A stretch of DNA of 64,000 nt from Xanthomonas hortorum. Lineage in GTDB: Bacteria; Pseudomonadota; Gammaproteobacteria; Xanthomonadales; Xanthomonadaceae. Below, in pieces: positions 25,300 to 63,005 of this stretch. The stretch lies in NCBI RefSeq assembly GCF_024339125.1, contig NZ_CP101417.1, positions 2,181,001 to 2,245,000 on the forward strand. Direction: 5' to 3'. Position 1 is the first letter of the stretch. Every line of letters begins with the position of its first letter. The notes beneath the pieces were generated by a model. It saw only the letters and a program-made list of their open reading frames with translations. It was not told the DNA's origin and ran no database searches. The position numbers were made by a program, and so were the translations under genes.

Positions 25300-25613
25300 G
25301 TCCACCGTGCTTGCAGCATGCAGGCATTGTGGCCGACACGTGAGGTGCCGGCAGCATGCCGATACCGTTGCCATAAGGCATCTGCCGGTGACACGCTGGC
25401 ACCATAGGCATCACGCATGGCTCAGACGGCGCGCCGCCCCGCAGCAATGACGTATGGCGGCGGACTAGGCACCACCGCCATCACGTATGGCGATGGGAGC
25501 CAGCCAGCCGCACAACGCCAAGGCATGGCGCCCGCACCACAGCGCTCTGAAGCATTCACGATGCGTGCGGGGCAGTCTCACAGGCTGAGACGCCATCGCT
25601 GCATGCTGCTTGG
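25300..25613. other. Intergenic region without clear features
   Basis: This 314-base spacer is rich in short echoes of catacgtatggcg-like words (near 25380-25500) but shows no well-formed hairpin with T-tract. It presumably holds the promoter of the radical SAM gene, whose GTG start has no good ribosome site nearby. Confidence 0.3.
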
Positions 25614-26858
25614 GTGAAAATCCTCGACAAGCTCGCCGTCCTCGCCGACGCCGCCAAATACGACGCCTCCTGCGCCTCCAGTGGCGCCAACAAGCGCAAT
25701 TCGCTCGGCACCGGCGGCATCGGCAGCACCGAGGGCATGGGCATCTGCCACTCATACACGCCCGATGGCCGCTGCGTCTCGCTGCTGAAGATTTTGCTGA
25801 CCAACTTCTGCATCTTCGATTGCGCGTACTGCGTCAATCGGGTGTCCAGCAACGTGCGCCGCGCGCGCTTCACGCCGGAAGAAGTGGTCACGCTGACGCT
25901 GGATTTCTACAAGCGCAATTACATCGAAGGCCTGTTCCTGTCCAGCGGCATCATCCGCAACTCCGACTACACCATGGAGCAGCTGGTGGAAGTGGCGCGG
26001 CAGCTGCGCGAGGTGCATCACTTCGCCGGTTACATCCATCTCAAGACCATCCCCGATGCGACGCCGGAATTGCTGGCCGCGGCCGGTCGCTACGCCGACC
26101 GCCTGAGCATCAACGTGGAGTTGCCGACCGAGCAGGGCCTGACCTTGCTGGCGCCGGAAAAAAGCGTCGGCGGCATTCGCGCGGCGATGGGTGAACTGCG
26201 TTGGCGCATCGAAGAGAATCAGCTCGAGCGCAAGGCCGAAAAAGTGCGCCGCGCCAAGCCGCCGCGCTTCGCCCCGGCCGGGCAAAGCACGCAGATGATC
26301 GTCGGTGCCGACGACGCCAACGACCGCAGCATTCTGGACACCAGCCACAATCTCTACGGCAATTACCGGATGCGCCGGGTGTATTACTCGGCGTTCAGCC
26401 CGATCCCGGATGCCTCCTCCAAGTTGCCGCTGCAGGCGCCGCCGTTGCAGCGCGAGCATCGGCTGTATCAGGCCGACTGGTTGCTGCGCTTCTACGACTT
26501 CAGCGTGGAAGAGATTGCGCCGGCGCAATCCAGCGGCATGCTCGATCTGGATGTGGACCCGAAGCTGGCGTGGGCGTTGCGCAATCCGGAGCGCTTTCCG
26601 GTGGATTTGAACGCGGCGCCGCGCGAGATGCTGCTACGGGTACCGGGCCTGGGCACGCGCAATGTGGAGCGCTTGCTGTTGTCGCGCAGGCATGCGCGCT
26701 TGCGGGTGGGAGATCTGGCGCGGTTGCGGGTGCCGATGAAGAAGCTGCTGCCGTTTGTGAGTGTGCTGGATCATCATCCGCGCCAGCGCTTGGACGATCC
26801 GGTGCGGTTACGCGCGCAGTTGGCGCCGGCACCGCGACAGGCAAGTTTGTTCGATTGA
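25614..26858 (+). CDS. Putative DNA modification/repair radical SAM protein (UdgX partner)
   Basis: A 414-residue radical SAM enzyme. The Cys triad for the 4Fe-4S cluster is C-x3-C-x2-C in NFCIFDCAYCVNR near residue 65-72. The family-type N-terminus KYDASCASSGANKRN and GICHSYTPDGRCVSLLKIL precede it. At the C-terminus a helix-hairpin-helix is visible: PREMLLRVPGLGTRNVERLL. The combination matches the group annotated as 'putative DNA modification/repair radical SAM protein', regularly encoded beside a DUF4130-UdgX protein, as here (27404). The start GTG at 25614 gives MKILDKLAVLADAAKYD, the common family start. The exact reaction is unknown. Confidence 0.9.
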   Translation: MKILDKLAVLADAAKYDASCASSGANKRNSLGTGGIGSTEGMGICHSYTPDGRCVSLLKILLTNFCIFDCAYCVNRVSSNVRRARFTPEEVVTLTLDFYKRNYIEGLFLSSGIIRNSDYTMEQLVEVARQLREVHHFAGYIHLKTIPDATPELLAAAGRYADRLSINVELPTEQGLTLLAPEKSVGGIRAAMGELRWRIEENQLERKAEKVRRAKPPRFAPAGQSTQMIVGADDANDRSILDTSHNLYGNYRMRRVYYSAFSPIPDASSKLPLQAPPLQREHRLYQADWLLRFYDFSVEEIAPAQSSGMLDLDVDPKLAWALRNPERFPVDLNAAPREMLLRVPGLGTRNVERLLLSRRHARLRVGDLARLRVPMKKLLPFVSVLDHHPRQRLDDPVRLRAQLAPAPRQASLFD

Positions 26859-27009
26859 CGCCTGTCCCTTCTCCCGTCGGGAGAAGGTGCCCGAAGGGCG
26901 GATGAGGGTACGGCCGCACGCATGACTTGGAAGTTCTTGATTGCTTCTACGAATCCCCAATTTCCACCACCGAATTCCTGCGCCAAGAGCTTCCACGCCT
27001 TGCGGCGCG

Positions 27010-27037
27010 GGTTACTTTTGTCTTGGCAAAAGTAACC
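27010..27037. repeat. GGTTACTTTTG hairpin
   Basis: A perfect 11-bp stem, ggttacttttg with caaaagtaacc, has the 6-base loop tcttgg. Hairpins of this form occur in intergenic DNA of many proteobacteria. It could act as a transcription terminator or RNA-stabilising element after the radical SAM gene. Confidence 0.6.
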
Positions 27038-27213
27038 AAAACCGCTGTCGCCTGACGCGATCCGGTGCGATACAGCCGCACCGGTGCCCTGTGCTCCTCG
27101 CCATGCGCGGCACGGCGCCCAAACTCGCTGCGCTCAGACAGGGCGCCTCTTCGGCCACGCATGGCTGCGGTGCTCGGCTCGCTCTAAGGCGACTTGGTGC
27201 AGCAAAATCAACG

Positions 27214-27296
27214 GCGACAAGCGACAAGCGACAAGCGACAAGCGACAAGCGACAAGCGACAAGCGACCAGCAACAGCAACCAGCAACCAGCAACCA
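27214..27296 (+). repeat. 7-bp tandem repeat (VNTR-like)
   Basis: Seven perfect copies of gcgacaa are followed by gcgacca, a 6-base gcaaca unit and three copies of gcaacca, so about twelve units with a gradient of sequence drift. It is intergenic, about 110 bases before the udgX start. The array type is expected to vary in copy number between strains through replication slippage. Confidence 0.95.
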
Positions 27297-27403
27297 GCAG
27301 TATCAGTAGCAGCAAAAGCCCGCGAAAAAATCGCAACAACGCAACGATAGTGCCGCCAGTAGAGCGATGGCGAGATCGGAAATCTTGAGGTCAGGTGTAA
27401 GCG

Positions 27404-28843
27404 ATGTTCAGCGCTGAAGTTGAGCCAGGTTGGAGTCTTGATGCGTGGCGTGCGCTGGCGCGGGCGGGGTGGTGTGCGCAGGTGGAGCCTGACTCCATTG
27501 CGTGGAATGGTGGCGTGCAGGGTGGCTTGTTGATGGGGCAGGGGATGCTGGACCTGCCGGCGGTGGCTGCCGCGCCGCGAGTCTCCGCAGAGTTTTTGCA
27601 GATGGCGGGGGCGGTGCTGTGTCATCGCGACCCGCAGCGCTATGCGGTGTTGTATCGGTTGTTGTGGCGGTTGGCGTCCGGCGAGCGGGCGTTGCTGGAG
27701 CGGGCGACCGATGTCGATGTGCACCGTGTGGCACAGTGGCAGAAGGCGGTGCAACGCGATACGCACAAGATGAAGGCATTCGTGCGCTTCCGGCGCTTGC
27801 CCGGCGAAGAAGAAGACTTTGTGGCGTGGTTCGAGCCCGAACACTGGATCGTGGATCGGGTGGCGCCGTTTTTCGCGCGCCGTTTCGCCGGAATGCGCTG
27901 GGCGATTCTGACTCCGTATCGCAGTGTGCGCTGGGATGGCGAGGCGTTGACGTTCGGCGAAGGCGCCGTGCGCACCCAAGTGCCGGCCGACGATGCGCAG
28001 GAGACGCTGTGGCGCACCTATTACGCGCACATCTTCAATCCGGCGCGGCTCAATCCCACCATGATGCGGCAGGAAATGCCACAGAAATACTGGAAGAATC
28101 TGCCCGAGGCGAGCTTGTTGCCGGAGCTGATCCGCGAGGCGGGTGTGCGCGTGCGCGAGATGGCCGAGCGTGCGCCAGAGCCGGTGCGGCGGCGAGTGCC
28201 GGTCGCGCCAGCGCCGATCCCGGAAGTGGCTACGCAAAGCCTGGCACAGTTGCGCGTGGCCGCGCGCGATTGCCGGCGTTGCGCGTTGTGGCAACCGGCA
28301 ACGCAGACGGTGTTTGGCGAAGGGCCGAACGATGCATCGGTGATGGTGATCGGCGAGCAGCCGGGCGACGAAGAGGATCTGAGCGGGCGTCCATTCGTCG
28401 GGCCGGCCGGGCGCCTGTTCAACATGGCGCTGGGCGAGATCGGCATCGATCGCGACACAGTCTATGTGACCAACGCGGTCAAGCATTTCCGCTTCGAGCA
28501 ACGCGGTAAACGGCGTCTGCATCGCAACCCGGAACGGGCGCATGTGCAGGCCTGCAGTGGCTGGTTGCATGCAGAGCGCGCACAACTGCGTCCGGCGCAG
28601 ATCGTGTGCCTGGGCGCGACTGCGGCACAGGCGGTGTTGGGAAGCGGCTTTCGCTTGATGCGCGAACGTGGCCAATGGAAGCGCCTGGACGATGGCACGC
28701 CGGTGCTGACCACCGTGCATCCGTCATGGGTGTTGCGTCAGCCAACGACGGCCGCACGCGAGGAAGGCTATCGCGGGTTTGTGGAAGATCTGCGCCAGCT
28801 GCTGGACATACCGATGTCGGCGGGCAGCTCGGCCGCGCCATAA
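27404..28843 (+). CDS. DUF4130-UdgX fusion, uracil-DNA glycosylase family protein
   Basis: A 479-residue two-domain protein. Residues about 1-260 are the DUF4130-type partner domain (FVRFRRLPGEEEDFVAWFEPEHWIVDRVAPFFARRFAGMRWAILTP). Residues about 280-475 are a family-4-like uracil-DNA glycosylase of the UdgX group. Cluster cysteines are seen in CRRCALWQ, VQACSGWL and QIVCLGAT; motif 1 reads GEQPGDEEDLSGRPFVGPAG; motif 3 is TVHPSW. The loop KRRLHRNP contains the UdgX-specific KRRxH, whose His forms a covalent bond to the abasic site in studied UdgX. It works with the radical SAM gene upstream in gene neighbourhoods; here 545 bases separate them. Confidence 0.92.
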   Translation: MFSAEVEPGWSLDAWRALARAGWCAQVEPDSIAWNGGVQGGLLMGQGMLDLPAVAAAPRVSAEFLQMAGAVLCHRDPQRYAVLYRLLWRLASGERALLERATDVDVHRVAQWQKAVQRDTHKMKAFVRFRRLPGEEEDFVAWFEPEHWIVDRVAPFFARRFAGMRWAILTPYRSVRWDGEALTFGEGAVRTQVPADDAQETLWRTYYAHIFNPARLNPTMMRQEMPQKYWKNLPEASLLPELIREAGVRVREMAERAPEPVRRRVPVAPAPIPEVATQSLAQLRVAARDCRRCALWQPATQTVFGEGPNDASVMVIGEQPGDEEDLSGRPFVGPAGRLFNMALGEIGIDRDTVYVTNAVKHFRFEQRGKRRLHRNPERAHVQACSGWLHAERAQLRPAQIVCLGATAAQAVLGSGFRLMRERGQWKRLDDGTPVLTTVHPSWVLRQPTTAAREEGYRGFVEDLRQLLDIPMSAGSSAAP

Positions 28844-62444: not shown

Positions 62445-63005
62445 ATGCAAGCTGAAAAAGACATTCACCCAGGTGCGATCGCCGTGACGAAAAACGACGT
62501 GTTGCAAGGCCTGCCAGCGCACATTCCTGGCGATTGCCGTGTCTTGGTGCTCGGTTCGATGCCCGGCAACGCCTCGCTGGACGCGGCGATGTACTACGCG
62601 CACTCACGCAATCGGTTCTGGCCGTTGATGCAGGTGTTGCTGGGTATCGATGCAAGCGCCGCGTATGCCGAACGTCTGGAGGCGTTGGCGCACTGCGGCG
62701 TCGGCGTGTGGGATGTGATCGGCCAATGCGAACGGCGCGGCAGCCTGGATACGGCCATCGTCGCTAGCAGCATCGTGGTTAATCCGTTGGCGGCGCGCCT
62801 GGCGACGCTGCCGCAGCTGCGCGCGGTGGCCTGCAATGGTGCCGCTGCGGCGCAGGCGTGGCGTCGGCACGTGCAACCGCTGTTGCCAACGCAGTTGCAG
62901 GCAGTGCCGGTCTGGGCGTTGCCGTCCACCAGCCCGGCCAACGCAGCGTGGTCGTTGCAACGTTTGTGCGACGCCTGGCAGCCGTTGCGCGATGCCTTGG
63001 ACTAG
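62445..63005 (+). CDS. DNA-deoxyinosine glycosylase (UDG superfamily, family 6-like)
   Basis: A 186-residue repair glycosylase. The signature is VLVLGSMPGNASLDAAMYYAH, then SRNRFWPLMQVLLGI, CGVGVWDVIGQCERRGSLDT and VPVWALPSTSPANAAWSLQR (motif with STSPAN). Enzymes of this type remove hypoxanthine from deaminated adenine. It has none of the cluster cysteines of UdgX. GGAGAAGG lies 13-20 bases before the chosen ATG; a GTG at 62484 is an alternative start. It stands alone, opposite ompW. Confidence 0.9.
   Translation: MQAEKDIHPGAIAVTKNDVLQGLPAHIPGDCRVLVLGSMPGNASLDAAMYYAHSRNRFWPLMQVLLGIDASAAYAERLEALAHCGVGVWDVIGQCERRGSLDTAIVASSIVVNPLAARLATLPQLRAVACNGAAAAQAWRRHVQPLLPTQLQAVPVWALPSTSPANAAWSLQRLCDAWQPLRDALD

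Follow-up and report, generated by a model that had tools for sequence, protein, structure and literature searches.

A radical SAM gene and a DUF4130-UdgX fusion gene in Xanthomonas hortorum: a putative damage-induced pair in which DUF4130 appears to be the constant partner

A 64,000-nucleotide stretch of Xanthomonas hortorum contig NZ_CP101417.1 (positions 2,181,001 to 2,245,000, hereafter the window, with position 1 as its first letter) carries a gene for a radical S-adenosylmethionine (SAM) protein (25614..26858, + strand, 414 amino acids, GTG start) followed by a gene for a fusion of a DUF4130 domain to a UdgX domain (27404..28843, + strand, 479 amino acids). An earlier note on this DNA, made from the letters alone, had placed both open reading frames at these positions, which was borne out, and the conserved-domain search that it proposed put TIGR03914, TIGR03915, TIGR03916, PF04055, PF13566, and PF03167 all above their curated cut-offs at the locus. 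The upstream gene, on the same strand, is the radical SAM neighbor that the note had described: its product scored 559 bits against TIGR03916 ('rSAM_link_UDG', cut-off 343.5), a family titled 'DNA modification/repair', and also matched PF04055. The locus is a member of a recognised, uncharacterised system.

In the radical SAM protein, C66, C70, and C73 form the CX3CX2C triplet, and three additional cysteines, C20, C45, and C54, lie upstream of it. All six were shared by every one of the 135 radical SAM proteins compared, a set made up of 55 sequences from a first set of loci and 80 from named loci. In TYW1, MiaB/RimO, and LipA, a trio of cysteines ahead of the radical SAM motif binds an auxiliary [4Fe-4S] cluster, and since three invariant cysteines likewise precede the triplet here, a second iron-sulfur (Fe-S) cluster is suggested for the window protein, which differs from those enzymes in that none of them was among the 12 PDB sequences matched by the radical SAM family profile (up to E 10). 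A C-terminal helix-hairpin-helix (HhH) is probable at about residues 328-358 on the basis of relatives and the family profile. The HHH_3 cut-off was passed by one of two scanned relatives, with the other just under, and the family profile gave weak matches to the HhH segments of RuvA (E 0.002) and ComEA (E 0.01) in the PDB, matches that are consistent with DNA binding by the radical SAM protein. The HhH is the least secure of the domains proposed in the earlier note, being probable for the family, and the window protein alone had no Pfam HhH match at E 0.001.

In the fusion protein, the DUF4130/TIGR03915 part covers residues 1-237 (27404..28114, + strand), with PF13566 matching at 77-235 and TIGR03915 at 11-236, and its conserved residues are H121, R128, P145, R160, W203, Y206, R215, W230, and E235. 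No convincing remote homologue of DUF4130 was found among solved structures (best E 0.42) and none in PHROGs. The UdgX domain, residues 238-465 (28115..28798, + strand), matched TIGR03914, 'UdgX family uracil-DNA binding protein', at 321 bits (cut-off 190), and together these domain matches support the fusion read by the earlier note. Motif A (GEQPG) lies at residues 317-321, the R-loop (KRRLH) at 369-373 (28508..28522, + strand), and motif B (HPSWVLR) at 439-445. The UdgX half aligned with crystallised UdgX chains at E ~1e-58, its GEQPG, GKRR-L/I-H, and HPS motifs lining up with theirs, so that the covalent-trap motif that had been proposed falls where it does in the crystallised proteins, with His373 matching His109 of Mycobacterium smegmatis UdgX. 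All 53 aligned UdgX sequences, of which 40 are fused and 13 stand alone, have an equivalent of His373. PMC10359453 describes M. smegmatis His109 as bonding to C1' of the abasic sugar upon activation by Glu52 of motif A, and family 4 enzymes as carrying Ala or Gly in motif A where the UdgX GEQPG has Gln. The window protein retains GEQPG, the bonding His of KRRxH, and HPS..R of the M. smegmatis protein (PDB 6AJO, 8IIE, and others), and differs from it in being fused to DUF4130 and in having Trp in motif B where PMC10359453 gives Ser/Ala. These likenesses lead us to infer a covalent activity for the window UdgX. Two fused UdgX sequences lay outside the 53-row alignment: L126, from the same genus, retains KRRLH, and L072 retains GEQPG and has a longer, altered R-loop in which the His is probable by eye and trap activity is possibly changed. 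At another locus, L092, DUF4130 and UdgX lie in different reading frames, representing either a frameshift or a separate gene.

The partnerships among the three domains were compared across 299 genomes of one phylum, inferred to be Pseudomonadota. The radical SAM model was above cut-off in 53 genomes and UdgX in 52, and TIGR03915 matched in 57 (56 above cut-off). Caulobacter vibrioides, included as a control genome, gave matches to all three families. DUF4130 was present in every one of the 53 radical SAM genomes; UdgX was present in 40 of them and was below cut-off or absent in the other 13. UdgX occurred in only 12 of the 246 genomes without the radical SAM gene, an association that is inflated by shared ancestry, such that Fisher values, which are phylogenetically uncorrected, overstate independence. 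Beyond this sample, the best 80 of at least 588 relatives, mainly from Bacteroidota and Moraxellaceae, were examined as named loci, and 78 of them had DUF4130 downstream in the same orientation. The exceptions were L131, where the contig ends soon after the gene, and Capnocytophaga sputigena (L172), which had no DUF4130 within the flanks examined. None of the 80 named loci showed UdgX in its flanks, which reached 4.5 kb at most and less where a contig ended, and none of the 50 whole genomes searched from among them had it above cut-off, with 10 giving weak matches. On a quick tree of 74 radical SAM proteins, including 20 of the 80 named, the presence of an adjacent UdgX required 8 changes over 73 labelled rows.

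At the level of sequence, these comparisons identify DUF4130 as the partner that always accompanies the radical SAM protein and UdgX as an add-on, and they do not support the earlier note's view of UdgX as its main partner. Because UdgX was missing from the flanks of the named loci and from the 50 further genomes, and because the trait needed 8 changes on the tree, the three-way link appears to be proteobacterial and the two-way link the core, within the present sampling. In most of the proteobacterial loci examined, UdgX is fused to DUF4130. One locus from a sister genus (L125, genome G035) has the radical SAM and DUF4130 genes and no UdgX in the stretch examined, its whole genome not having been searched for UdgX.

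Four of the 299 genomes (G131, G345, G275, and G259) have DUF4130 without a radical SAM gene, and in three of them DUF4130 is decayed. In G131 (L114), only the end of DUF4130 matches, with an internal stop and 36 residues detected by phmmer; in G345 (L121), the protein ends ahead of the conserved EMPxxYWxNLPE segment; and in G275 (L120), that segment is absent and Arg128 is substituted. UdgX was above cut-off, with its motifs kept, in both G131 and G275 despite the decayed DUF4130. Given the decay in three of four such genomes and the survival of UdgX in two, it seems that DUF4130 no longer serves a purpose once the radical SAM enzyme is missing, which is not so for UdgX, although three of four is a small number.

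Upstream sequences were screened for LexA-type boxes, defined as an exact GTTCN7GTTC on either strand or CTGTN8ACAG within 350 bp upstream of the equivalent of window residue 1. Boxes were present in 47 of 52 proteobacterial loci (window excluded), where 200 shuffles averaged 0.76 and never exceeded 3, and 43 of the 47 were located at 15-56 bp, with the remaining 4 at 96-99 bp. Three of the five box-less loci carry a one-base variant of CTGTN8ACAG, and the other two, L080 and L101, carry none. Motifs of Bacteroidota type (CTAAN5TTAG or GGAN5TCC) occurred at 39 of the 80 named loci, where shuffled sequences gave 4.1 on average. No LexA-type box, and none resembling that of the lexA promoter, occurs in the 350 bp ahead of the radical SAM gene in the window; a candidate palindromic operator, GTCTCACAGGCTGAGAC (GTCTCAN5TGAGAC), is located instead at 25575..25591, 22 bp before the start of that gene. 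This palindrome recurred at a constant spacing in every one of 21 distinct genomes from three genera (23 loci, two genomes being represented twice), with arm changes in four: three have A for the first G, and one, from a sister genus, differs at one other arm base. L101 carries the palindrome. Of the 23 loci, 21 allowed the DUF4130-UdgX gene to be placed (starts were guessed by script, and L008 is doubtful), and none of these had a second palindrome ahead of it. Such damage-type operators, like the three extra invariant cysteines, go beyond what the earlier note had described.

The 5.44-Mb genome contains two exact copies of the palindrome. Inspection by eye of the open reading frames near the other exact copy and near the five sites with one mismatch revealed no evident connection to repair, no family search having been made. 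At up to two mismatches, the motif was barely enriched genome-wide (50 sites compared to 42 in the control), and since this enrichment is slight, any regulon must either have few members or use a looser motif than the form searched. Among 40 genomes of the family, 33 matched a recA upstream query, and 30 of those loci (L234-L263) were examined. A relative of the palindrome with 1-3 mismatches was present upstream of recA in 25 of the 25 loci that could be placed, 24 of them at a near-identical spot, in a count made without a shuffled control and with a query that itself contained the motif. The recA form in the family is of the type GTC(T/G)CAN5TG(A/C)GA(C/T), which is distinct from the lexA box: at the same loci, the lexA promoters carry TTAGTAGTA(A/T)TACTACTAA-type boxes in 22 of 24 placed cases (up to 3 mismatches), and their best matches to the palindrome have 4-6 mismatches. 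The genome has two lexA genes, a feature that, with the type of lexA box, suggests Xanthomonas. Because the recA promoter shares the palindrome and the lexA promoter has different boxes, the operon appears, from its promoter motifs, to be tied to recA rather than to lexA in the window lineage.

The linkage of DUF4130, radical SAM, and UDG (uracil-DNA glycosylase) has been published (PMC3765255, which also labels the radical SAM protein 'SplB-like') and is recorded in the NCBIfam names of TIGR03916 and TIGR03915. A two-gene COG1573-COG4277 operon has been placed in SOS-like networks of Bacteroidetes by PMC8565304, which cites reports of SOS control for the operon in Verrucomicrobia and Alphaproteobacteria (Caulobacter) and reads it as a 'uracil-DNA glycosylase-based base excision repair system'. 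Elsewhere, CAC3343-CAC3344 of C. acetobutylicum is putatively LexA-controlled (PMC3828012), and the radical SAM gene is upregulated in desiccated Acinetobacter (PMC13130816), listed among genes raised in Fusobacterium co-culture (PMC9848294), and simply listed in PMC9611098. With the terms used, the open-access literature searched yielded no biochemical study, substrate, activity, or structure for the radical SAM protein or DUF4130. The suggestion of an incompletely described system held, substrate and activity being unreported in the literature found; the linkage was already in print. The window shares with these linked families (TIGR03914/TIGR03915/TIGR03916; PMC8565304, PMC3765255) the three domains, the adjacent genes, and the damage-regulon context of relatives, and differs in having a recA-like palindrome where relatives have a LexA-type box, and in the wide spacing of its genes, which is filled with repeats. 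While PMC8565304 treats the system as UDG repair, the present counts place DUF4130 at its center; the neighbors in the Bacteroidetes operon were here found to be DUF4130 without a UdgX match (Pfam was run on three partners, two of them from Bacteroidota). The COG label in PMC8565304 may have been carried over from fused proteins.

We consider it about an even bet (a probability near 0.5) that the locus encodes a damage-induced radical SAM and DUF4130 lesion-processing pair, with a tethered UdgX that seals uracil and AP (abasic) sites until RecA-dependent repair. DNA damage would induce the two-protein module, presumably also in this genome, and the radical SAM enzyme would be recruited to DNA, its likely substrate, through the C-terminal HhH. 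Its CX3CX2C cluster, together with a probable second Fe-S cluster at C20/C45/C54, would then drive a radical reaction on a damaged nucleotide, with DUF4130 presumably serving as a lesion-recognition or second catalytic subunit. In most of the sampled Proteobacteria with the pair, the window included, UdgX is tethered to DUF4130, where it would excise uracil at the same sites, stay on the AP site through a predicted covalent bond of His373, and guard that site against strand breakage until a RecA-dependent step took over. PMC10359453 calls the precise physiological role of UdgX largely unknown and proposes that the M. smegmatis UdgX-DNA complex may be resolved by RecA-dependent pathways or proteases, a proposal that the tie to recA would suit. 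The domains, the conserved residues, the constant pairing, the accessory nature of UdgX, the damage-type boxes in relatives, and the recA-like palindrome in the window are the parts of this proposal that have support in the sequences. A broader claim is more tentative and, in our judgment, somewhat doubtful: that the two proteins repair DNA by radical chemistry as a class of their own, with no relation to photoproduct lyase, in which two Fe-S clusters and DUF4130, a partner of unseen fold, act on an as yet unassigned lesion, with SOS-type recruitment in many lineages, a recA link without a LexA box in one, and UdgX joining in Proteobacteria to shield AP sites covalently.

Several observations weigh against the proposal of a damage-induced lesion-processing pair. 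The lack of a LexA-type box upstream of the window gene and the slight genome-wide enrichment of the palindrome both count against damage control in this genome, and the missing Pfam HhH match counts against recruitment to DNA. C20/C45/C54 might instead hold zinc or be structural. Shared ancestry behind the co-occurrence counts, the lack of DUF4130 near the C. sputigena gene, and G259, where DUF4130 is intact in a genome with no radical SAM match (its gene lying 1.2 kb from a contig end), bear against an obligate partnership, and the published record found is silent on any activity. The alignment of the spore photoproduct lyase (SPL) family used below is also small, comprising 7 rows in two subgroups.

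SPL requires an H-atom-donor cysteine downstream of the radical SAM motif. After C73, the most frequent cysteine in the radical SAM family, at position 384, occurs in 53 of 135 proteins, and the window protein has none, so that no widely conserved cysteine is available for this part. This bears on the reading of the radical SAM protein as an SplB-like photolyase that reverses a thymine photoproduct by SPL chemistry, which draws on the SOS context, the label in PMC3765255, and a CX3CX2C motif common to both. The profile-profile match to the SPL family covered 37 columns around that motif at a probability of 22%, and because only these motif-flanking columns align, we do not class the protein as a photolyase; nor did NCBIfam give an SPL model up to E 10, where filters drop many weak matches. 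Compared to the SPL family (TIGR03886), the window protein shares the radical SAM triplet and DNA as a likely substrate, and differs in its probable HhH and three upstream cysteines. An SplB-like photolyase was rejected on the short similarity, the cysteines, and the lack of an SPL model match, and we regard it as unlikely. It is slightly harder still to accept a uracil base-excision unit, implied by PMC8565304, in which UdgX does the work and the radical SAM and DUF4130 proteins help. The fusion in most proteobacterial loci examined and the strong tendency of UdgX to occur in genomes that have the radical SAM gene, as seen in the phylum sample, speak for such a unit, but 13 of the 53 proteobacterial radical SAM genomes do without UdgX, none of the 50 further genomes has it above cut-off, the trait changes repeatedly on the tree, and 12 of the 299 genomes keep UdgX with no radical SAM gene.

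Nucleic acids are frequent targets of modification by radical SAM enzymes whose extra cysteines precede the motif, MiaB and TYW1 being examples. With this precedent and a TIGR family title that reads 'DNA modification/repair', the radical SAM enzyme and DUF4130 could install a modified base rather than repair one, although damage-type boxes in 47 of 52 proteobacterial relatives suit an emergency role better than constant modification, and PADLOC gave no match (neighboring restriction or reader genes were not searched for); we judge such a role as improbable as the base-excision unit. An anti-phage defence system was likewise rejected, as no PADLOC-DB model matched up to E 1. Least credible of all, and very improbable, is that the pair exists to resolve covalent UdgX-DNA adducts. 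The fusion would put a resolving activity beside the adduct, but the pair often occurs without UdgX, and UdgX persists without the radical SAM gene in the genomes counted above. This role was rejected given the absence of UdgX from so many pair-bearing genomes, and from their distribution the pair can hardly have evolved mainly for that purpose.

A probably damage-induced pair present in 53 of 299 sampled genomes, and adjacent in 78 of 80 largely Bacteroidota named loci, has been assigned no substrate in the literature found. Taking DUF4130 as the constant partner redirects experiments toward seeking the lesion in strains that have the pair and lack UdgX, and suggests that 'uracil-DNA glycosylase system' may not be the right label for the Bacteroidetes operon. 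What UdgX does in the cell becomes testable as the work of a shield coupled to the radical SAM/DUF4130 pair, and the comparison as a whole brings a recognised repair system closer to experimental test.

In the window, 545 bp separate the two genes (26859..27403), a gap that includes a GCGACAA tandem array at 27214-27275, with the TIGR03916 and TIGR03915 matches 593 bp apart and both genes on the + strand. Within the genus the gap ranges from about 135 to 700 bp (starts guessed by script; a value of 6 bp for L008 is doubtful), in a sister genus it is 22 bp, and in 45 of the 53 sampled genomes the radical SAM and DUF4130 model matches are no more than 206 bp apart. Because the length varies within the genus and is short in most sampled genomes, the wide gap in the window is probably a recent, local feature. 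In a genome of the same genus (G027:C1:1321503-1322722), the radical SAM gene is broken across two overlapping frames. The window contains a further match to the UDG superfamily at 62523-62984 (+ strand; PF03167, 41 bits), one of four such matches genome-wide. Two contigs from a viral collection, L207 and L208, encode the radical SAM protein, one of them partially, and may be bacterial DNA. A radical SAM homologue was also found in 158 plasmid records (Phaeobacter, Paracoccus, Azospirillum, and others), 142 of which were rated non-mobilizable.

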